Positions 24,489 to 36,598 of a stretch of DNA of 64,000 nt are shown here, piece by piece. Numbering within the stretch: position 1 is the first letter of the stretch; each line of letters starts with the position of its first letter. The notes under the pieces were generated by a model. The model made no database searches. It saw only the letters and a list, made by a program, of their open reading frames with translations, and had not been told where the DNA came from. The translations under genes were made by a program, and so were the position numbers. Source of the DNA: Acidimicrobiia bacterium (lineage in GTDB: Bacteria > Actinomycetota > Acidimicrobiia > Spongiisociales > ZC4RG35); contig BPGJ01000003.1 in the NCBI GenBank assembly GCA_026002975.1, forward strand, positions 1 to 64,000, given 5' to 3'.

Positions 24489-25070
24489 TCAATCGGCCGA
24501 GGCCGACGAGGAGAGCCCGATGTCGGTGTCGCCCAGCACCTCCCTGTGTCCGATGCCCAAGGTCTTGATCCACCGCTGTTGACCGCTCGTCAGGGCCACG
24601 AAGAACCCGAGTTCCACCAGCTCGGGTGTCGTGAACCAGCGACCTAGCTCCTCCCACAGTGCGTCGTCCGCCAGCGACGCTTCCCATAGGATGGCCGAGG
24701 TGTAACGAAGTGCCGCCTTCTCCCGTGCCGAGAACCGATCCGACTCCTCGAAACGCAGCAGCTCGTCGTATACCTCTTCGGTGAGGCCCATCCGTCCAGC
24801 CTGGACGGAACGTTGAACCCCTCAGTAGTCGCACTCGATCGACTTCGATACGTAGACCCGGCACAGTTCCTTGATCGAGTGGTCGAGGACCCCGCCTATG
24901 AAGCTGGCCTCCCACATGTCGGTGAACGAGTGGAGCACCGCCGGTACGTGGGCCCGGATCGCCTGACTCTCGGGGCGTGGCGTTCCCCGGCGTCTCGCCC
25001 TCTCGAGGATCTCCCTGTCCTCCGGCGATAGGTCCTCCAGGTCCGGATACGGGATGTTGGGCATGGCCAT
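24489..25070 (-). CDS. Selenocysteine-containing AhpD-like (carboxymuconolactone decarboxylase family) protein
   Basis: 193 aa when the in-frame UGA at 24824-24822 is read as selenocysteine (Sec83). The two halves are in one frame: before it VSKSIECDY, after it GVQRSVQAGR, aligning exactly with TKTVQCGYC-AAQRSS of the paralogue at 33163, so Sec replaces the second Cys of CxxC (motif CDYU). An 8-bp hairpin with loop GGC follows 12 nt after the UGA. Paralogues at 31405 and 33163 keep CGYC. CxxC members of this family are peroxidases or disulfide reductants; Sec would raise reactivity. Promoter TTGCTG-18-TAGAAT, 5 nt to the ATG. A standard caller would give an 82-aa fragment plus a second ORF. 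Alternative: a nonsense change or base error, less likely given the hairpin. Confidence 0.85.
24791..24809 (-). promoter_or_regulatory. Bacterial SECIS-like hairpin in the AhpD-like gene
   Basis: TCCGTCCA / TGGACGGA, 8 perfect base pairs with a 3-nt loop GGC on the coding strand. It begins 13 nt after the UGA; loop at +21 to +23. The Cys paralogues have only weak 4-bp pairings at the same place. Confidence 0.8.
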
Positions 25071-25215: not shown

Positions 25216-26151
25216 GTGCGGAAGGTAGCCGTGGTCGGGCTGCGGCACCAGGACCTCGACATCGAACGGGAAGTCCTGGCAGGCATGGACGTCGACCTCG
25301 TCCGGCTCGATGCCGGACGATGGGAGGACGCCGCCGACGCCGATGTGCTGATCGTCGGATCGAGTCCCCGCCTCGACCGGCGAGCCCTCGGTCGCCTGCG
25401 GGGTAGGGCCATCGTTCGGGCTGGTATCGGTCTGGACTCCATCGATCTGGTAGCCGCACGGGAGTTGGGCTACACCATCGCCTACGTGCCCGACTACGGG
25501 ACGGAAGCCGTGGCGTTTCATACCCTCGCCCTGGCGTGTGCCGCCCTCCGGCGTCTGGTGGCGGCCCACCAGACGGTGCTGGCGGGAGGCTGGGGTTTCG
25601 ACGCCCTTCGGCCACTCCATCTTCCGTCGTCTTCCACAGCCGGGGTGGTGGGTCTGGGACGAATAGGTAGACGGGTGGCGGAGCTGTTCGTAGCGGTGGG
25701 TTTCGGGCGGGTGGTTGGACACGACCCGTGGGCGCAGCCACCGCCAGGAGTCGAGTTGGCGGAGCTGGGCGATCTCCTGGGCACGGCCGACGTCGTCACC
25801 CTCCACGTCCCACACACCGGAGAGGTCCTCTTGGGAGCGACCGAGCTCGGGAGGATGAAGGAGGGATCGGTGCTGGTCAACACCGCCCGGGGCGGCCTGG
25901 TCGACTTCCATGCGCTCGCCGAGGGTCTGAGGCGGGGAAGGCCGGGGATGGCGGCCTTGGACACGTTCGACCAGGAGCCGCCGGATCTGCGCGCCTTCTC
26001 GGGCTTGGAGGATCGGCTGGTCCTCACCCCGCACATGGCCTGGTACACCGAGGAGACGGAGACCCTCCTCCGTAGGCGGGCCGCCGAGGAGGCACGGAGG
26101 CTCCTGATCGGAGAGGCTCCGCTCAACCCGGTAGAGCTCGAGGAGGTCTGA
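25216..26151 (+). CDS. D-2-hydroxyacid dehydrogenase 1
   Basis: 311-aa NAD-dependent 2-hydroxyacid dehydrogenase. Rossmann motif VVGLGRIGRRVAELF; catalytic Arg in VNTARGGLVD, Glu in DTFDQEPP and His in TPHMAWYTEET. Interconverts 2-hydroxy and 2-oxo acids. GTG start fixed by the -10 box 6 nt upstream. First of five genes running plus (dehydrogenase, creatininase-like, cupin, Gfo/Idh, LLM monooxygenase), with overlaps of 4 nt between most. Confidence 0.87.
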   Translation: MRKVAVVGLRHQDLDIEREVLAGMDVDLVRLDAGRWEDAADADVLIVGSSPRLDRRALGRLRGRAIVRAGIGLDSIDLVAARELGYTIAYVPDYGTEAVAFHTLALACAALRRLVAAHQTVLAGGWGFDALRPLHLPSSSTAGVVGLGRIGRRVAELFVAVGFGRVVGHDPWAQPPPGVELAELGDLLGTADVVTLHVPHTGEVLLGATELGRMKEGSVLVNTARGGLVDFHALAEGLRRGRPGMAALDTFDQEPPDLRAFSGLEDRLVLTPHMAWYTEETETLLRRRAAEEARRLLIGEAPLNPVELEEV

Positions 26152-26154
26152 GCA

Positions 26155-26901
26155 GTGAAGTCCATCTACCGCTTGTCGAGTCCAGAGGTAGAGGAGGCGT
26201 TGGCCGCCACTCGTACGGTGGTGATCCCGCTCGGGAGCGTGGAGCAGCACGGCCCCCATCTTCCGTGCGGCACCGACACGATGGCGGCCGAGCTGGTCGC
26301 CGCGGAAGTGGCCGAACGCCTGGACGCGCTCCTGGTGCCTTTCGGCCCCTACGGGGTCACCCCCATCCACGCCGGTCATCCCGGGACGATCTCCCTCAGC
26401 CGCCACACCTTCGAAGCCCTGCTGAGCGACATCTGTCGGCAGCTCGTGGACGGCGGAGCTCGATGGTTCCTCTTCGTGAACTGGCACGAGGGCAACATCC
26501 CGTCGATGGATGCAGTGGCCATGGAGCTGCAGAAGAGCAACCCAGGCGTCTACGTGGTGTCGGCGCAGGCCTGCTACGTCGCTCAGGAGATCTACGCCGG
26601 CGAGGGAGGCGAGCTCACCCACGGCGGCGGGATCGAAGCGATGGCGGTGATGGCCTACGACCCGTCGCTGGTGAAGGAAACCCGAGCGGCGACCCGACCC
26701 GAGCGGGCGGCCGCCCTCGACCGGATGAGACGAGGTCGGACGGTGTACGGGTACATCACCGACGTCACCGAGATCGACCGGGAAGGCTGGTACGGCGATC
26801 CGGCCTGGGCTACCCGGGAGCGGGCTGAGGCGTTCCCCCACCGGGTGGCGGATGAGATCGTTCGGGCGTTCGAGGAGATCAGGAAGTTGAGGCTTGGATG
26901 A
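26155..26901 (+). CDS. Creatininase-family amidohydrolase
   Basis: 248 aa, the usual family length. Metal site E30 and H32 in GSVEQHGPHLP, D41 in CGTDT, His in FVNWHEGNIPS and Glu in THGGGIEAMAV. The family includes creatinine amidohydrolase, FAPy deformylase-type and mycofactocin-type proteins; the catalytic ligands are complete but the substrate is not inferable. GTG start 3 nt after the dehydrogenase stop. Overlaps the next cupin by 4 nt. Confidence 0.88.
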   Translation: MKSIYRLSSPEVEEALAATRTVVIPLGSVEQHGPHLPCGTDTMAAELVAAEVAERLDALLVPFGPYGVTPIHAGHPGTISLSRHTFEALLSDICRQLVDGGARWFLFVNWHEGNIPSMDAVAMELQKSNPGVYVVSAQACYVAQEIYAGEGGELTHGGGIEAMAVMAYDPSLVKETRAATRPERAAALDRMRRGRTVYGYITDVTEIDREGWYGDPAWATRERAEAFPHRVADEIVRAFEEIRKLRLG

Positions 26902-27263
26902 CCTTCGTTCGCGGTGAGCACCTGAGTTTCGAGGAACTGCCCGGGCGCCGGTCGGCCGATCCCTTCGGAGCCGGCGACGCCGCCGTCAGGGTGGTGGAGG
27001 TCACCCGCGGCGCACCCCGGACCGCCCATCGCCATCCGCACAGCGACGAGTACGTATACGTCGTGGCGGGGGAGGGGCGGCTGTGGGTCGATGGAGAGTG
27101 GGGACGGTTGGCGGCCGGCGATCTGGCGAGGATCCCCCGCGGTGCCCTCCACGCCACGGTGGCGACCAGCCCCACGGTGCGCCTGGTCTGCTTCTTCGCC
27201 CATCCAGATCTCACATCCAACCTCGAAGAAACCGACCTTCCCATAGGAGAGGAGGAAGAATGA
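26898..27263 (+). CDS. Small cupin
   Basis: 121-aa single cupin. First motif TAHRHPHSDEYVYVVAGEGR (about residues 42-61), second IPRGALHATVATS. Both motifs keep their His ligands. ATG overlaps the creatininase-like stop; its own stop overlaps the next gene (ATGA), so the set is translationally coupled. May be an isomerase or a protective binding protein for an unstable intermediate; not assignable. Confidence 0.78.
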   Translation: MTFVRGEHLSFEELPGRRSADPFGAGDAAVRVVEVTRGAPRTAHRHPHSDEYVYVVAGEGRLWVDGEWGRLAAGDLARIPRGALHATVATSPTVRLVCFFAHPDLTSNLEETDLPIGEEEE

Positions 27264-28318
27264 ACGAGAAGGTGAGGCTGGCACCCGTGGGTCTCGGCCG
27301 CTGGGCGAGGGTACTCGCCCGGGGTGCGCTCCGGGGCGACGTGATCGAGCTCTACTCCTGTTACTCCCGTTCGGAGGAGAAGAGGAAAGCCTTCCAGGAG
27401 GAGTTCGGGATTCCCCGGTCGGCCGCCACCTACGAGGAGCTCCTGGCAGACCCGGACCTCGAGGGCGTCATCGTCACCACCCCGAACGACACCCATCGCC
27501 AGGTGATCGTGCAGGCCCTCGAGGCAGGAAAAGCCGTCTACACCGACAAACCCATCGCCCACACCCTGGAAGACGCCGCCGCCATCAAAGAAGCCGTGGA
27601 GCGCTCCGGGCTGGCTTTCGCGGTGGGCCACAGCGCCCGACGGCTCGGGGGTCACCGGGTGATGAAGGAGTGGATCGAATCGGGGCGAATCGGCCGTATC
27701 TCGCTGGCCGAAGCCAACTTCAGCAACGAGCGGGGCCTCGAGCTGAACCCCGACACCTGGCGGTGGTACGCCGACAAGTCCCCGGGTGGAACCCTGATCC
27801 AGCTGGGAGTACACCACGCCGACACCCTCCAGTACCTCCTCGGTCCGGTGGTCGCCGTGTCGGCCCACGCCCGGCGGCTCTACACCGCGGCGGAGGTTCC
27901 CGACGCCGTGATGTGCATCCTGGAATTCGAATCGGGTGCTCTCGGCTACCTGGGCTGCGGCTGGGCATCACCCGGGGTGTATCAGATGCGCCTACAGGGA
28001 ACCGAGGCGAACCTGATGTACGACCTCGACTTCACCCACTGGGACGAATCGCATCAGGCAGATCGCTGGTCCACCCTGGTGTCACAGGCATATGGTGAAT
28101 CGGTGAGGCCACCGGTGGAGATCCCACCCACCGACATGTTCCGTGAGCAACTCGAGGAGTTTGCCTTGGCCATACGTGGACGGGCGACGGTCGAGGTGGG
28201 CGCCGACGAGGCCATCCGGGCCCTGGCGGTGGTGCATGCCGCCCTTCGATCCTCGGACCGGCGAGGAGCGGCCGTGGAGGTCGGGGAACTGATGCAAGAG
28301 GTGGGCGCCAAGATTTGA
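27260..28318 (+). CDS. Gfo/Idh/MocA-family oxidoreductase 1
   Basis: 352-aa NAD(P)-dependent oxidoreductase of the sugar/inositol dehydrogenase superfamily. N-terminal APVGLGRWARVLARG in place of a strict GxGxxG, then EGVIVTTPNDTH and the EKP-motif equivalent VYTDKPIAHTLEDA with Lys kept. C-terminal catalytic region GGTLIQLGVHHADTLQYLLG with the family His. The ATG has a strong SD (GGAGAGGAGGAAG). Acts on a polyol, sugar acid or cyclic alcohol; substrate unknown. TTGA overlap with the following monooxygenase. Confidence 0.83.
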   Translation: MNEKVRLAPVGLGRWARVLARGALRGDVIELYSCYSRSEEKRKAFQEEFGIPRSAATYEELLADPDLEGVIVTTPNDTHRQVIVQALEAGKAVYTDKPIAHTLEDAAAIKEAVERSGLAFAVGHSARRLGGHRVMKEWIESGRIGRISLAEANFSNERGLELNPDTWRWYADKSPGGTLIQLGVHHADTLQYLLGPVVAVSAHARRLYTAAEVPDAVMCILEFESGALGYLGCGWASPGVYQMRLQGTEANLMYDLDFTHWDESHQADRWSTLVSQAYGESVRPPVEIPPTDMFREQLEEFALAIRGRATVEVGADEAIRALAVVHAALRSSDRRGAAVEVGELMQEVGAKI

Positions 28319-29133
28319 GGTTCACCTTCAAGCTCTGGCCTCAGGAGACGACCTGGGAGGACCTCCGGCGCGGGTGGGAGGCCGCCGACGTGGAGGGTTT
28401 CTGGTCGGGTGGTTGGATCAACGACCATCTGCTCCCACCCCGCGCATCGGAGGACCTGCCGATCCTCGAAGCATGGACCGTTCTCGCCGGTCTGGCCGCC
28501 CGGACGCGTCGGCTCACCCTGGGGACCATGGTTGCCTGCAACACGTATCGGCATCCTTCCCTCTTGGCGAAGATGGCGACCACCCTGGACCACGTGTCCG
28601 GCGGACGCCTTCGCCTCGGCCTCGGTGCAGGCTGGCACGAGAGGGAACACGAGGCGTTCGGGATACGGCTTCCTCCCCTGGGTGAACGGTTCGATCGTCT
28701 GGAGGAGACCCTCGAGATCCTCCGCGGTCTGTTCACACAAGAGGTGTTCGACTATCGGGGCCGCTTCTACCGGCTCCAAGGGGCACGCCTCGTGCCCAAG
28801 CCCGTCCAGGAGCCCGGGCCTCCTCTGGCGGTGGGAGGCGCGGGACCGCGTCGCACCATCCCGTTGGCTGCCCGCTGGGCGGACCTGTGGAACTTCCCCG
28901 ATTTCGGGTTCGATCCCGACACCTTTCGGGAGAGGCGGTCGCTTCTCGTGGAATCGAGCCGACTCCACGGACGCCGAGTCGAGGTGTCTGTCCAGTTCAG
29001 GTATTCGGGCGACTTGGGGGAGGTGCGGGAACGGGTGGCCGCCTATCGGGAGATAGGAGTGGACGAGATCCTCGTCAGCTTCGTCCCGCCCGTCGACCCG
29101 CTCGAACCCGTGCGGTTGGCCGAGCGGCTGTGA
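28315..29133 (+). CDS. LLM-class flavin-dependent monooxygenase/F420 oxidoreductase
   Basis: 272-aa bacterial-luciferase-like TIM barrel. Typical features: GTMVACNTYRHPSLLAKMAT, LDHVSGGRLRLGLGAGWHE and LEETLEILRGLFTQE. Cofactor may be FMN or F420; F420 is common in actinobacteria, so the assignment stays open. TTG start overlapping the Gfo/Idh stop (TTGA). Last gene of the operon; it converges on the alpha/beta hydrolase with a 1-nt gap. Confidence 0.85.
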   Translation: MRFTFKLWPQETTWEDLRRGWEAADVEGFWSGGWINDHLLPPRASEDLPILEAWTVLAGLAARTRRLTLGTMVACNTYRHPSLLAKMATTLDHVSGGRLRLGLGAGWHEREHEAFGIRLPPLGERFDRLEETLEILRGLFTQEVFDYRGRFYRLQGARLVPKPVQEPGPPLAVGGAGPRRTIPLAARWADLWNFPDFGFDPDTFRERRSLLVESSRLHGRRVEVSVQFRYSGDLGEVRERVAAYREIGVDEILVSFVPPVDPLEPVRLAERL

Positions 29134-30330: not shown

Positions 30331-31134
30331 ATGGCCCTGTGGAGTGAGCTGTCGATCGATCCCGAGGAGCTGGGTCGCAAATATCGCGACTGGGTGGCGC
30401 GGGTGGAGGAGACCCACCACGGGGCCAACCATCGGGTCAACCAGACGGCGGCCTTCACACCTCTCTCCGGACCTCTCGAGGAATGCACGGTGGCTCTGGT
30501 GTCCACCGCGGGCGTGCACTTGGAGGACCAGCCTCCCTTCGACACGGAGAGCATCGAGGGCGATCCCTCCTACCGGATCATCCCCGGTGATGCAGCTCCA
30601 AACAGGCTTCGCTTCTCCCACACCCACTACGACACCTCCTCGGCACGGCTCGATCCCAACGTGGTGTTCCCCATCGACAGGCTGACCGAGCTGATGAACG
30701 CCGGCCGGATAGGGGAGGTCGCTCCCTTCCACATCGGGATGATGGGGTTCAACCCGGACCCGACGGAGGTCGCCGAACGAACCGCTCCGGAGGTCGCCGG
30801 GCTGCTCGCCGACGCCGACGTCGACGTTGTGATCCTGGTCCCCGGCTGACCCATGTGCCACCGGTCGGTCGGACTGATCCAGGGAGCCATCGAGTCGGCC
30901 GGTATCTCGACGGTCAGCCTCACCCTCCGCCCCGAGATCACCTTCCACATGAGGATCTCGCGGGCCGCCTACGTGCGGTTTCCGTTGGGTAATCCTCTGG
31001 GTGAACCGAACCGACCCGACCAGCACCACCTGGTGCTCGGTCAGCTGCTCGAGCTGTTGGAGTTGGCGCAAAGCCCGGAAACGGTGGTGGAGCTGCCCTT
31101 TCGGTGGAGGAGGTGGGACCGGTGGCTGGGATGA
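30331..31134 (+). CDS. Selenocysteine-containing PrdB/GrdB-like protein (selenoprotein B family)
   Basis: 267 aa when the in-frame UGA at 30847-30849 is read as Sec173, giving the motif LVPG-U-PMC-HRSVGLIQ (UxxC). The upstream part has the family segments RFSHTHYDTSSARLDPN and VFPIDRLTELM; the frame is open for 94 further codons after the UGA. Close to the length of D-proline reductase PrdB (~240 aa), much shorter than GrdB. In this family the position is Sec or Cys and is the redox centre. A 7-bp hairpin (two G-U and wobble pairs) with loop CGG lies at +14 to +30 after the UGA. TAGGAT box 11 nt before the ATG, operator just upstream. Its stop overlaps the next small gene. Physiological substrate in this non-clostridial setting is unknown. 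Confidence 0.85.
30863..30879 (+). promoter_or_regulatory. Bacterial SECIS-like hairpin in the PrdB-like gene
   Basis: GGTCGGT pairs with ACTGATC (five Watson-Crick and two G-U pairs), loop CGG. The loop occupies +21 to +23 after the UGA, the same distance as in the AhpD-like gene. Confidence 0.7.
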
Positions 31135-31412
31135 TCTATGAACGGGTGCGGGAGAGAACCCGGGAGCTGGAGAGCGCCCTCTATGCGGCTCTCGACGCCG
31201 CCGATAGATACCGTGAGACCGTTTCCGAGATCCTGGCCAGGGAAGAGTCGTCACCGACCGCCAACGAGATGGTCTCCAAGAGGCTGCGCCAGTTCCTGGG
31301 GAAGAGCGAAGCCATCATCCGGACGTTGGAGGACGACGCCTTGACCGAGATGCTGTTCCTCATCGACCGCCTGTTCGCCCTGGAGGCGGCCGAAGAGGGA
31401 CGCTTCATCTGA
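31131..31412 (+). CDS. Small helical protein coupled to the Sec PrdB-like gene
   Basis: 93 aa from ATG 31131, which overlaps the PrdB-like stop (ATGA); upstream in-frame starts at 31104 or 31122 are possible. No recognised domain. The sequence is charged and predicted helical with heptad-like spacing (RELESALYAALDAADRY, then FLIDRLFALEAAEEG); no signal peptide, Cys or membrane segment. Tight coupling suggests a partner subunit or assembly factor of the selenoprotein. Its 3' end overlaps the convergent CMD gene by 8 nt. Confidence 0.6.
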   Translation: MIYERVRERTRELESALYAALDAADRYRETVSEILAREESSPTANEMVSKRLRQFLGKSEAIIRTLEDDALTEMLFLIDRLFALEAAEEGRFI

Positions 31413-31968
31413 CCTCGACCGATTCGCGGCGAATCGCCTCGGCCAGTTCACCCTGGGTCGCCCCCAGGGTCTTGATCCAACGTTGGCCGCCGAAGGTGAA
31501 GCCCACCCAGTATCCGAGCTCCACTATCTCGGGCTCCGAGAAGTGCTCCCTCAGCTCCTTCCACAGTGCCTCGTCGGTGGCCGCCGACTGGGAATCCCAC
31601 ATGATGGCGTCGGCATACCTGAGGGCCACCTTCTGGCGGGCGTCGAACCGATCGGACTGCTCGTAGTTGAACAGCTCGTCCTTGTCCCGGTCGTCGAACG
31701 ACGCCGCGGTGCCCTGGCGGGCGCAGTAGCCACAGTCGGCCGAGAGCGCGATGTAGGCACGCAGCAGCTCCTTCAACTCGTAGTCCAGGACACCCGAGTG
31801 GTATATCCACTCCCGGGTCTTGGTGAAGGACCGCATCACACCGGGCACATGTGCCCTGATGGCCTGTATCTCGGGACCGGGTTTGCCGGCCGCGATCGCA
31901 TCCTCCAACCAGCGGCGGCACTCCGCATCCTCGACACGTGCGGGGGTGACGTAGCTGATGTTGGCCAT
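31405..31968 (-). CDS. Carboxymuconolactone decarboxylase/AhpD-like protein, CGYC form (A)
   Basis: 187-aa AhpD-fold protein. Redox motif SADCGYCARQ near residue 80; conserved surroundings EIQAIRAHVPGVMRSF and LGYWVGFTFGGQRWIKTLG. Cys paralogue of the Sec protein at 24.5-25.1 kb. No His four residues after the CxxC, unlike mycobacterial AhpD, so hydroperoxidase chemistry is not assured. Promoter TTGCTG-17-TAGGAT (32003-31998 and 31980-31975), 6 nt to the ATG, with operator 32001-32010 covering the -35. Divergent from LacI repressor 2. Confidence 0.85.
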   Translation of the reverse strand: MANISYVTPARVEDAECRRWLEDAIAAGKPGPEIQAIRAHVPGVMRSFTKTREWIYHSGVLDYELKELLRAYIALSADCGYCARQGTAASFDDRDKDELFNYEQSDRFDARQKVALRYADAIMWDSQSAATDEALWKELREHFSEPEIVELGYWVGFTFGGQRWIKTLGATQGELAEAIRRESVEVR

Positions 31969-32071: not shown

Positions 32072-33103
32072 ATGGCCGGCCGGGTGACGTTGAGAGACGT
32101 GGCACGCGAGGCGGGTGTCCACACCTCGACGGCCTCGCGAGCCCTCAACCCCGCCACGCGCTCGGTGGTCAATCCTGAGACGGTCGAGAAGGTGCTCGCC
32201 GTGGCTCGTCGCCTCGGCTATCGACCTCACCCTCTGGCTCGGGGACTGCGCACCAACCAGACGATGACGATCGGAATGGTGATCCCCGACATCGAGAACC
32301 CCATCTTCGGGCCGCTGGTGGCCGGCGCCGAGTCGGTGTTCGGCGCGGGCGGGTATTCGGTGTTGATCACCAACGTGGACCGGGGTGGGAACGTGAAGCC
32401 GCTGGTGGCCACCCTGCTGGAGCGGAGAGTCGATGGTTTGGTGTTGGCCACGGCGCTGCGGGAGGACGAGGTGGTGTCGGAGTTGCGGGCCCAGGACATC
32501 CCCACGGTGTTGGTCAACCGGACCACCGACGAGTACCTGGTCCCTTCGATCGTGGTCGACGACCAGGCCGGTATCGGCCTGGTCGTGCGTCACCTGGTGG
32601 GCTTGGGTCACCGTCGGATAGGCCACGTGGCCGGGCCCCGTCACCTCTCCACGGGTTGGGGTCGCTACCAGGGGTTCTTCGGATGGATGCAGAGCCTCGG
32701 GCTGGACGTTTCGCCCGAGCAGGTCGAGGAAGCCGAGTGGTTTCAGGTGGAGCCCGGCTACCGGGCAGCGCAGCGTCTGCTCGAACGCCTGCCCGACCTG
32801 ACCGCCATCGTCGCCGGCAACGATCTGATCGGGCTGGGCTGCTACAGGGCGATCCGCGAGTTCGGCAAGGAGGTGGGTCGGGATGTTTCGGTCACCGGAT
32901 ACAACGACATCGCTCTGCTCGACCTCATGCAGCCTCCGATGACCTCGGTCAGGGTCCCTTTCCGGCGGATGGGGGAGGAGGCGGCCAAGCTGCTGCTCGG
33001 GCTCCTCTCGGGCGAGCGGTCCGACACCGAGACCATATCGGTACGCCTCCAGCCCATCCTCTCGGTGAGGTCGTCGACCGCTCCTCCGCCCGACGACGCC
33101 TAG
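32072..33103 (+). CDS. LacI-family transcriptional repressor 2
   Basis: 343 aa. HTH at the N-terminus (VTLRDVAREAGVHTSTASRAL, from residue 5), hinge PHPLARGLRTNQTMTIGMV, effector domain with VSVTGYNDIALLDLMQPPMTSV. Recognition helix GVHTSTASRAL differs from LacI repressor 1 only at positions adjacent to the conserved contacts, supporting a shared operator. Effector pockets differ, so two inducers could feed one regulon. Leaderless start. Operators flank the gene at 32001 and 33121. Confidence 0.92.
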   Translation: MAGRVTLRDVAREAGVHTSTASRALNPATRSVVNPETVEKVLAVARRLGYRPHPLARGLRTNQTMTIGMVIPDIENPIFGPLVAGAESVFGAGGYSVLITNVDRGGNVKPLVATLLERRVDGLVLATALREDEVVSELRAQDIPTVLVNRTTDEYLVPSIVVDDQAGIGLVVRHLVGLGHRRIGHVAGPRHLSTGWGRYQGFFGWMQSLGLDVSPEQVEEAEWFQVEPGYRAAQRLLERLPDLTAIVAGNDLIGLGCYRAIREFGKEVGRDVSVTGYNDIALLDLMQPPMTSVRVPFRRMGEEAAKLLLGLLSGERSDTETISVRLQPILSVRSSTAPPPDDA

Positions 33104-33162: not shown

Positions 33163-33717
33163 ATGCCCCGTATCCCATATCCCGACCTGGACCGGCTGGA
33201 GCCGTGGGCCCTCGAGATCCTCGAACGGGCGAGACGGGAGGGCACGCCCCGTCCCGAGAGCCAGGCGATCAGGGCTCACGTCCCCGCCGTGTTGAAGACC
33301 TTCACCGACGCGTGGGACAAGGTGTTCGTCAACGGTGTGGTTCCCCACGAGCTGAAGGAGCTGTGCCGGGTGTACGTGACCAAGACCGTCCAGTGTGGCT
33401 ATTGCGCCGCCCAGCGGTCGTCGAAGGCCGCAGGGGACGAGGGGCGCTACGACGAACTCCTCGACTATGAACGTTCCGACCGGTTCACCGAACGGGAGAA
33501 GGCTGCTCTGGCGTACACCGACGCAGTGGTATGGGACGCGTCCCTGGCCACCCCAGAACTCTGGGAGCGTCTTCACCGGCATTTCACCGTTCCCGAGCTG
33601 GTCGAGCTCGGGTTCTTCATTGCGCTCACCTCGGGTCAACAGAGATGGCTGAAGACGCTCGACCTGCGCCATGGGGAGGTCCTGGGAGACGTCTTGACCG
33701 GGGTGGTGGAGAGATGA
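33163..33717 (+). CDS. Carboxymuconolactone decarboxylase/AhpD-like protein, CGYC form (B)
   Basis: 184 aa, the closest paralogue of the Sec protein: shared blocks RIPYPDLDRL/NIPYPDLEDL, GTPRPESQAIRAHVPAVL, KELCRVYVTK and ALTSGQQRWLKTL. Redox motif VQCGYCAAQRSS near residue 82. Leaderless start 6 nt after TAAGTT. The stop overlaps the start of the OsmC-like gene (ATGA), coupling two thiol-based proteins. Having Sec and Cys versions in one regulon suggests backup under selenium limitation, or different partners (inference). Confidence 0.87.
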   Translation: MPRIPYPDLDRLEPWALEILERARREGTPRPESQAIRAHVPAVLKTFTDAWDKVFVNGVVPHELKELCRVYVTKTVQCGYCAAQRSSKAAGDEGRYDELLDYERSDRFTEREKAALAYTDAVVWDASLATPELWERLHRHFTVPELVELGFFIALTSGQQRWLKTLDLRHGEVLGDVLTGVVER

Positions 33718-34202
33718 CCACCGACGAGACGGTCGATCTCTCCAAACCCATCGTCCGCAGGAAGCAGGTGTCGGCCGTCAACCACGGCGGCATGTTCACC
33801 GAGATCGACTTCGGAGAGTACGGGTATTTCGCCACCGACGAGCCCATCGCTCACGGAGGGACGGGGGAGGGACCCTCTCCCCTCCAGACGGTGCTGGGAG
33901 CGCTGTTGGGCTGCGAGTCGGTCACCTTCAACCGCACCGCCGCCGAGATGGGTTTCGCCTACCAGGGCATCGAGTTCGACGCCGAGTACACCATCGACAT
34001 ACGTGGGCGAATGGGTGTCAGGGGGGTCCGGCCCCACTTCCGCACGGTCCGGGTCGACGCCGTGGTGACGACCGATGAGCCCGAAGAGCGATTCCGCGAG
34101 GTGGTGGAGGAGACCGAGGCCCGGTGCCCGGTCTACAACCTGCTCAAAGACGCCGGGGTGAACCTGCAGATGCGGTGGGTGAGGAAGCCGACCGGCGGCT
34201 GA
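33714..34202 (+). CDS. OsmC-family thiol protein 2
   Basis: 162 aa OsmC-fold protein. Cys in LGALLGCESVTFNRT and Cys in ETEARCPVYNLLKDA, the usual redox pair. No signal peptide. ATG overlaps the CMD-like B stop, so peroxidase-type thiol chemistry is encoded as a pair. A second OsmC-like protein lies beside the Sec AhpD-like gene, so the pairing of OsmC with AhpD-like proteins occurs twice in the window. Ends 3 nt before the convergent ALDH stop. Confidence 0.83.
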   Translation: MTTDETVDLSKPIVRRKQVSAVNHGGMFTEIDFGEYGYFATDEPIAHGGTGEGPSPLQTVLGALLGCESVTFNRTAAEMGFAYQGIEFDAEYTIDIRGRMGVRGVRPHFRTVRVDAVVTTDEPEERFREVVEETEARCPVYNLLKDAGVNLQMRWVRKPTGG

Positions 34203-34205
34203 TCC

Positions 34206-35663
34206 TCACCAGTCCACCGCTATGTACTTGGTCTCGAGGAACTCCATCAGGCCCTCGTGTCCTCCCTCCCGGCCGAGGCCGCTCTGCTTCACCCCGCCGA
34301 ACGGGGCGGCCGGATCCGAGATCAGGCCTCGGTTGATCCCCACCATGCCCGCCTCGATCGCTTCGGCGGTACGCATGGCCCGGGAAAGATCCGAGGTATA
34401 TAGGTACGCGGCCAGCCCGTGGATCGAATCGTTTGCCATTCGGATGGCCTCCTCGTCGGTGGAGAAGCGGACCACCGGAGCCACCGGGCCGAAGATCTCG
34501 CGGCGCAGCACCGGGTTGTCGGGCGACACCCCGTCCACCACGGTGGGGAGGTAGAAGAAGCCGGGCGAATCGGGTTTGCCCCCACCCGTCTTGACCCGGC
34601 CGCCTCCGGACACCGCCAGCTCGACCGCCTCCTCCATGTCCGCTTGGGCGCCGGCGTTGATGACCGGCCCCAGCTCGACCTCGGGATCGAGCCCGGGGCC
34701 GACCCGGACCGACTCCATCGCCTTTGCCAGGAGGTCGGCGAACCGATCGGCCACCTTCTCGTGGACGTAGATCCGGTTGGCGGCGATGCAAGACTGGCCA
34801 CCGTTGCGGAGTTTGGCGACCATGGCTCCCTCGACTGCGGCTTCGAGGTCTGCGTCTTCGAACACCAGGAACGGGGCGTTGCCACCGAGTTCCATGGAGC
34901 AGTTGACGACCCGCCGAGCAGCCAGCTCCAGCAAGGTTCGCCCGACTTCGGTGGATCCGGTGAACGAGAGCTTCCGTACCCGGTCGTCGGCCAGCATGGC
35001 CGAGACGACCTCCGAAGACCGCCGGGAAGGCAGCACGTTCAGAACACCCGGTGGGAGGCCGGCCTCCTCCAGCAGCGCGGCGATCGCGAGCGAGGTGAGC
35101 GGGGTGTCCGAAGCCGGTTTCAGCACCATCGTGCAGCCCGCCGCCACGGCAGGGCCGATCTTGCGGGTGGCCATCGCCGCGGGGAAGTTCCAAGGGGTGA
35201 TCAACAGCGCTACCCCCACCGGCTGGTGGATGGCGACGATCCTCTTGTCACCCCCGGGTGCCCTCTGGATGGTTCCCTGGTTCCGGACCGCCTCTTCGGA
35301 GAACCACCTGAAGAACTCGGCGGCATACGCCACCTCGGCCCGGGACTCCTTGATCGCCTTGCCCATCTCCAGCGTGATCAGCTCAGCCAGCTGGTCGGCC
35401 CGGTCGATCATGAGACGGAAGGCGTTCCTCAGGATCTCCCCCCTCGTGCGGGGAGCCACCGAGGACCAGTCTGCGGCTGCCTCGTGGGCGGCCTCCACCG
35501 CGGCCAGGGCGTCCTCGACGCTACCGCTCGACACCTCGGCGATGGGTCGTCCGTTCGACGGATCCAGCACCTCGAAGGTGGCACCATCAGAGGACTCCAC
35601 CCATTCGCCTCGAATGTGGAGGCGGGTGTGACCCCTCTCGATCAGCGTGTCGAGCAGGCTCAT
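34206..35663 (-). CDS. Aldehyde dehydrogenase (succinate-semialdehyde type)
   Basis: 485-aa NAD(P)+ aldehyde dehydrogenase. Catalytic Cys in GGQSCIAANRIYVH, general-base Glu in CSMELGGNAPF, Asn in ITPWNFPAAMATRK, glycine motif FTGSTEVGRTLL. The pattern resembles succinate-semialdehyde dehydrogenases (GabD-like), but related semialdehydes are equally possible. ATG overlaps the stop of the upstream beta-hydroxyacid dehydrogenase; together they would turn a 3-hydroxyacid via its semialdehyde into an acid. The internal GAATCGTTTG is coding, not counted as an operator. Confidence 0.9.
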   Translation of the reverse strand: MSLLDTLIERGHTRLHIRGEWVESSDGATFEVLDPSNGRPIAEVSSGSVEDALAAVEAAHEAAADWSSVAPRTRGEILRNAFRLMIDRADQLAELITLEMGKAIKESRAEVAYAAEFFRWFSEEAVRNQGTIQRAPGGDKRIVAIHQPVGVALLITPWNFPAAMATRKIGPAVAAGCTMVLKPASDTPLTSLAIAALLEEAGLPPGVLNVLPSRRSSEVVSAMLADDRVRKLSFTGSTEVGRTLLELAARRVVNCSMELGGNAPFLVFEDADLEAAVEGAMVAKLRNGGQSCIAANRIYVHEKVADRFADLLAKAMESVRVGPGLDPEVELGPVINAGAQADMEEAVELAVSGGGRVKTGGGKPDSPGFFYLPTVVDGVSPDNPVLRREIFGPVAPVVRFSTDEEAIRMANDSIHGLAAYLYTSDLSRAMRTAEAIEAGMVGINRGLISDPAAPFGGVKQSGLGREGGHEGLMEFLETKYIAVDW

Positions 35664-36598
35664 TCTTCCAGGCCGTCCGACACTTCCCGGTTCTCGGGGG
35701 TTATCTCCATCCCCGAGGCCCGGGCCTGACGGGTGAGCAGGGCCGCGAAGTCCTGATCCCCGTAACCGAGGCCGATGCCCTCCATGATGATCGAGTGGAC
35801 CAGCGCCGCGGTGGGCAGGGGAACGTCGAGTTTCCGCCCGGCGTCGAGCCCCAGCTCGAAGTCCTTCCTCAGCAGATGCCAGGTGAAAGTGGGCGTGTAG
35901 TCCAGGTTCACGTAGGCAGGCGTCTTGTAACGGGTGAAGGTGGAACCCATCACCGACTCGTTGAGGAACTCCAGGAAATCGGCCCTTGACACCCCGGCAG
36001 CCTCGGCGAGGATGGTGATCTCGGCCATCGACTGGGCCACCACCCCCAACATCAGGTTGTGACAGATCTTCACCAGCCGGGCCTCGTCCGCACCGCCCAC
36101 ATATGTGACCTTGCGACCGAAGAGCTCGAGGTAGGGACGGGCCATCTCGTAGGCGTCGCGGGGGCCCGACGTGACCACGGTGAGCTTCCCCGACTTGACC
36201 ACCTTCGGGTTGCCGCTCACCGGAGCGGCCAGCAGAGCCGTCCCCAGCTCCTGGGCCCTGGCCCGCAGTTCCGCCGAGGTGTCGGGGTCGATGGTGGTCG
36301 AATCGACCAGCACCTTGGGGCGGGAGTCGGCTCTACTCAAGACACCGGACTCACCGAAAGTGACGTCGACCACGTCCTGGGGACCCGCCACGATGGTGAA
36401 CACGATGTCTCTGGAGGCCAGGTCGGCAGGCGAGTCGACGATCTTCGCGCCGAGAGCCGCGAGGGGTTCGGCCTTCGAACGGGTTCGGTTGTAGACCCAT
36501 ACGTCGACGCCGGCCCGGAGGAGTCGTTCGACCAGGGCGTATCCCATCCTCCCGGTCCCGATCCAACCGACCGTATGGGCGAATTCTGCTCGTGTCAT
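35660..36598 (-). CDS. NAD(P)-dependent beta-hydroxyacid dehydrogenase 2
   Basis: 312 aa. Rossmann motif GWIGTGRMGYAL (residues 11-22), substrate motif AAPVSGNP (124-131) and catalytic K177 in ARLVKICHNLMLG. About equally distant by eye from the first family member at 4.7 kb. SD GGAAGGAG precedes the ATG. Operator 36633-36642 lies 35 bp upstream. Operon with the aldehyde dehydrogenase. Confidence 0.88.
   Translation of the reverse strand: MTRAEFAHTVGWIGTGRMGYALVERLLRAGVDVWVYNRTRSKAEPLAALGAKIVDSPADLASRDIVFTIVAGPQDVVDVTFGESGVLSRADSRPKVLVDSTTIDPDTSAELRARAQELGTALLAAPVSGNPKVVKSGKLTVVTSGPRDAYEMARPYLELFGRKVTYVGGADEARLVKICHNLMLGVVAQSMAEITILAEAAGVSRADFLEFLNESVMGSTFTRYKTPAYVNLDYTPTFTWHLLRKDFELGLDAGRKLDVPLPTAALVHSIIMEGIGLGYGDQDFAALLTRQARASGMEITPENREVSDGLEE

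Follow-up and report, generated by a model that had tools for sequence, protein, structure and literature searches.

A predicted AhpD-like selenoprotein of Acidimicrobiia from a branch below the cut-offs of the matching family models

AhpD-like selenoproteins and the place of P0001 among them

Knowledge of AhpD-like CxxU selenoproteins goes back to 2005, and the groups described from marine metagenomes, AhpD-like 1 (COG2128/YciW) and AhpD-like 2 (PF02627), carry the motif in the AhpD/CMD fold, are followed by a SECIS hairpin just downstream and have Cys homologues (PMC1088965, PMC2398784, PMC13188914). In bacteria, the SECIS element is a hairpin placed right after the UGA codon, with a G in its small apical loop (PMC1088965). 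P0001, the predicted protein considered here, resembles the metagenomic proteins in these features, and the statement of a first-pass annotation that such proteins had already been reported from metagenomes is borne out by the same papers. Its gene is found at 24489..25070 on the minus strand of the window, i.e., the whole stretch of 64,000 nucleotides that was analysed, in an Acidimicrobiia-type metagenome-assembled genome (MAG) of 2.33 Mb that is 84.6% complete.

P0001 matches PF02627 (CMD) with 35.5 bits, above the cut-off of 23. Unlike the marine-metagenome proteins, it scores far below the cut-offs of TIGR01926 (28.4 vs. 81.8) and NF053654 (46.5 vs. 310), and it stays below the cut-off of every matching NCBIfam model. 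By its sequence, P0001 joins a type of selenoprotein already described, in a branch that, as judged by the scores of P0001 against the matching NCBIfam models, lies outside the cut-offs of the family models checked. What is added is a Sec-containing branch, from MAGs assigned to several phyla. Because the matching NCBIfam models, at their cut-offs, do not pick up the member in the window, such genes are at risk of being annotated as two fragments.

An AlphaFold model built from 32 sequences (pLDDT 86), which replaced a model made from 12 close sequences (pLDDT 63.5), predicts an all-helical AhpD/CMD fold for P0001. Its best match in the PDB is 2prr (TM 0.73), an uncharacterised peroxidase-related protein of Ralstonia whose fold corresponds over most of the chain at about 21% identity. 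The debrominase Bmp8 (6ohi/6ohj) is similar in length, in fold (TM 0.70-0.73, 17-19% identity) and in the position of its CxxC motif, whereas it has a Cys where P0001 has Sec. Sequence matches were obtained with PA0269 of P. aeruginosa (1.5e-14) and with Bmp8 (1.6e-13).

The active site of PA0269 comprises Glu36, Cys48, Tyr50, Cys51 and His55 (PMC3141380), and these residues map to Glu68, Cys80, Tyr82, Sec83 and Arg87 of P0001. The two-helix CxxC/CxxU motif and the upstream Glu of AhpD are present in P0001 (E68, C80, Y82, U83), which shares them, together with the position of the second Cys and the fold, with M. tuberculosis AhpD and PA0269; PA0269 has the CxYC pattern in common with P0001 as well. 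In contrast to both proteins, P0001 has Sec for the second Cys and Arg87 for the essential His (His137/His55), found in AhpD four positions downstream of the second Cys (PMC3141380). The Arg is found in 41/41 Sec sequences parsed and also in most Cys homologues. With Arg87 at the His position, P0001 lacks a defining feature of catalytic AhpD, so that its sequence marks it as AhpD-like in fold and redox motif and not as a canonical catalytic AhpD.

The in-frame UGA, the hairpin behind it and the decoding machinery

The P0001 gene ends with a TGA stop codon (24491-24489) and contains one internal UGA. The protein is 191-193 residues long depending on whether translation starts at 25064 or at 25070; the former, the second Met, is more likely to be the start, since this is where the orthologues begin. 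The span of 24489-25070 given in the first-pass annotation therefore holds for locus and strand, while its upstream end probably needs to be moved. The internal UGA, at 24824-24822 on the minus strand, corresponds to residue 83, the predicted Sec of a CDYU motif. As had been claimed, it falls on the second Cys of a CxxC motif, with CDY-UGA of P0001 aligning with CGYC of two AhpD-like paralogues in the window, paralogue A (33163..33717, plus strand) and paralogue B (31405..31968, minus strand). They are 65% and 46% identical to P0001, respectively, with homology running through the UGA, which confirms the proposed continuity of frame and homology across this codon. Of the two paralogue positions quoted earlier, 33163 is indeed the start of the plus-strand gene, while 31405 is the low end of the minus-strand one.

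The survey of orthologues covered 138 genomes from the same order and was complemented by a wider scan of named genomes, in which the relatives put the organism close to Acidimicrobiia MAGs. All 12 close orthologues of the order, that of the window included, carry a single TGA, always at the same codon; the eleven others are 70-75% identical to P0001, and the motif reads C[DEH]Y-U-GVQRSVQ. At least 20 more relatives with UGA at this codon come from MAGs of Rokubacteria, Deltaproteobacteria, ANGP1/Armatimonadetes, Chloroflexi (Ktedonobacterales among them) and Betaproteobacteria, and the scan shows the same state in Actinobacteria MAGs as well; these assignments are those of the depositors. TGA stands at exactly this codon in all 33 distinct homologous sequences of the Sec branch and in four loci that were read separately, a recurrence far beyond chance. 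Where UGA is exchanged at this column, Cys takes its place (alignment A6), which is the Sec/Cys exchange that the first-pass annotation had proposed to look for. Downstream of the UGA, divergence amounts to 0.42-0.60 at third codon positions vs. 0.15-0.25 at positions 1 and 2, and this concentration of differences at third positions indicates that the region is translated and under purifying selection.

An 8-bp SECIS-like hairpin with a GGC loop (UCCGUCCA-GGC-UGGACGGA) starts 13 nt after the UGA, at 24809-24791 on the minus strand, just as had been described. Its six core pairs are formed at the same offset in 33/33 Sec sequences vs. 27% of cells in 28 Cys homologues, and the hairpin is missing from the Cys paralogues. 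The core pairs display compensatory exchanges (C-G/U-A/G-C and C-G/U-A), and the apical loop is GGC in 25, GGG in 6 and GUC in 2 of the 33 sequences. A second, distant AhpD-like Sec subfamily (L052, L056, L057, L059-L062), with the motif CNYU-GNVRSASAKRNGL or QNGL, has the hairpin UCCGCUUC-GGC-GAAGCGGA or a near copy of it at the same distance from the UGA. When both subfamilies are taken together, 94.8% of cells are paired, five of the eight pairs have both partners exchanged, and covariation scores 0.506 vs. at most 0.147 with the partner slid; this covariation owes much to the split between the two subfamilies, and two-sided changes are seen within the main one too. The SECIS check proposed for this region has thus brought out a conserved hairpin with covariation.

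The genome also appears equipped to insert Sec, since the search suggested for selA, selB, selC (tRNA-Sec) and selD found all four. The tRNA-Sec scores 74.7 bits, above the Rfam cut-off, and ARAGORN independently calls the same tRNA as SeC(tca), while the Rfam gathering search and ARAGORN gave no match over the window alone. selB (329 bits), selA (445 bits) and selD all exceed their cut-offs. In a control search, selA had a match in 4/14 known genomes and reached the cut-off in E. coli only, which argues that the match in this genome is specific. The selD gene (L019/L020, G000:C1:239504-240413) contains an in-frame TGA, a feature shared by many SelD proteins. Near a G/C-rich run it also shows an apparent frameshift, which is probably an assembly or sequence error and leaves the selD component formally uncertain. 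Across the genomes compared, selA is present in 11/12 that have the Sec gene, the exception (G006) being 68% complete, and missing in four that have Cys forms only (G001, 69% complete, G120, G131 and G132). It is also found in many Cys-only or gene-less genomes, and hence the Sec machinery is not kept for the AhpD-like Sec gene alone.

Coding past the UGA, Sec machinery, a conserved hairpin and Sec/Cys exchange are therefore found together. Given the machinery of the genome, the retention of both UGA and hairpin in relatives and the lack of the hairpin in the Cys paralogues, the UGA at 24824-24822 is almost certainly decoded as selenocysteine, and P0001 would be a genuine CxxU selenoprotein, as the first-pass annotation had proposed. 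Genes in this genome usually end with UGA, and the codon might be a real stop here too, leaving a pseudogene or a truncated protein only; against this, the codon is shared by 33 distinct homologues across phyla, the sequence behind it is under purifying selection and the hairpin covaries, so that this reading was rejected as extremely improbable. An in-frame UGA alone would also be compatible with read-through as another residue, by genome-wide recoding to Trp or Gly or by Cys insertion. TGA is, however, the stop codon of 17/21 window genes checked, from which it follows that genome-wide recoding is absent, and that variant was discarded; the complete Sec machinery and the role of Cys as exchange partner further make decoding as any other residue very improbable.

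Putative chemistry of the CxxU site

In the mechanism proposed here, SelB and Sec-tRNA would read the UGA at the hairpin 13 nt downstream, yielding an AhpD/CMD-fold protein in which alignment and model put the Cys80-x-x-Sec83 active site beside Glu68 and Tyr82. The selenolate of Sec83, aided by Arg87, which stands where His is usual, would attack an oxidised or electrophilic substrate, which might be a hydroperoxide or a disulfide. Cys80 would then resolve the intermediate as a selenenylsulfide, to be reduced by a cellular thiol. P0001 would probably serve or protect the oxidative small-molecule catabolism that is encoded nearby (see below). Taken as a whole, i.e., UGA decoding, CxxU redox chemistry and a catabolic role, this explanation is considered probable, and the peroxide/disulfide chemistry of P0001 is given an even chance. 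The peroxidase or disulfide-reductase role put forward in the first-pass annotation thus comes out weakened: with Arg for the catalytic His in all Sec sequences parsed, the peroxidase activity of AhpD is not simply transferable.

P0001 might instead be a selenoenzyme that reductively cleaves a carbon-heteroatom or carbon-halogen bond, like the CMD-fold debrominase Bmp8. The latter is among its closest solved relatives, both by sequence and by fold, and in the alignment it likewise has no His four residues past the second Cys; the neighbours of the Sec genes are, moreover, mostly catabolic enzymes. On the other hand, PA0269, a weak hydroperoxidase (PMC3141380), is slightly closer to P0001 by sequence than Bmp8, and no halogen-specific gene was seen among the neighbours, which leaves a Bmp8-like cleavage unlikely. 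Among the papers searched, none gave a useful account of the mechanism of Bmp8 or of selenoproteins of Acidimicrobiia or Rokubacteria.

Cys paralogues, a second selenoprotein gene and the surrounding cluster

When the Sec codon and the columns that code for the SECIS were masked, the tree joined the acidimicrobial Sec clade with the closer Cys paralogue (93/90) inside the Sec family, apart from the Sec clade of the other phyla. This topology suggests that Sec was ancestral and that a Cys duplicate then arose in Acidimicrobiia by Sec-to-Cys reversion; it is a suggestion only, because a single clade of all Sec sequences was not rejected (p-AU 0.377). The set of Sec and Cys paralogues noted earlier is present, with the qualification that the closer Cys paralogue could have arisen from the Sec form and not the other way round. 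A Sec/Cys/Cys set in one genome, with a possibly reverted Cys clade, provides a test case for the advantage of Sec in this fold.

A second selenoprotein gene, PrdB-like and absent from the first-pass annotation of the Sec gene, is predicted at 30331..31134 on the plus strand (UPMC, UxxC; TIGR04483, 9.7e-49). Six other Acidimicrobiia-type genomes have a UGA at the position that corresponds to its UGA (30847-30849). The PrdB-like gene adjoins that of paralogue B. Between paralogues B and A lies a gene for a LacI-type regulator (32072..33103, plus strand; PF00356/PF13377), in the same position in relatives, and paralogue A is followed by genes for an OsmC-like protein (33531..34202, plus strand; PF02566, 3.9e-17), an aldehyde dehydrogenase (34206..35663, minus strand; PF00171, 5e-164) and a 3-hydroxyisobutyrate-dehydrogenase-type enzyme (35660..36598, minus strand; PF03446/PF14833). 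The cluster conserved in Acidimicrobiia consists of an alpha/beta hydrolase, the PrdB-like selenoprotein, paralogue B, the LacI regulator and paralogue A, with OsmC and the hydroxyisobutyrate-type and aldehyde dehydrogenases as variable members.

Divergent from the Sec gene, at 25216..29133 on the plus strand, are catabolic genes for a 2-hydroxyacid dehydrogenase, a creatininase-family protein, a cupin, a GFO/IDH/MocA protein and an F420-type LLM oxidoreductase. The first four of these adjoin the Sec gene also in L069, L071 and L116, of which L069 and L116 probably represent the same contig. An operon around the Sec gene conserved across phyla was sought and not found, its neighbours being varied catabolic and transport genes; outside Acidimicrobiia no set of neighbours is common to all, and no AhpC or peroxiredoxin is among the annotated neighbours. 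The single catabolic regulon of the first-pass annotation comes out weakened; what the sequences show is a conserved gene neighbourhood.

The PrdB-like gene nearby makes for a two-selenoprotein gene neighbourhood in Acidimicrobiia. It is about 5-6 kb from the Sec gene in the window and within about 6 kb of it in G065; in G116 the two are some 15 kb apart on the same contig, and proximity is not general. The AhpD-like CxxU protein, the two CxxC proteins, the PrdB-like UxxC protein, OsmC and the dehydrogenases could conceivably form one catabolic module in Acidimicrobiia, in which a selenol would reductively cleave a substrate bond and the AhpD-like proteins would carry electrons. This idea is distinctly unlikely; were it true, a chemistry akin to that of D-proline reductase would occur beyond the known Grd/Prd complexes.

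OsmC-like genes adjoin AhpD-like genes of either form, the Cys form in the window and the Sec form in L065, L066 and L068. The distant Sec subfamily (CNYU-GNVRSASAK) carries an 8-bp hairpin of its own; another homologue directly adjoins its gene in G115, G002, G006 and G004, and in G004 this homologue itself has a TGA. Besides the two Cys paralogues, the genome that holds the window contains a third AhpD-like copy (L024, G000:C11:10267-10779), also a predicted selenoprotein, with CGY-UGA in the motif CGYU-STVRSAR. L024 lies downstream of a hydrolase gene that, judged from its reading frame without a family-library search, resembles the CocE/S15 type.
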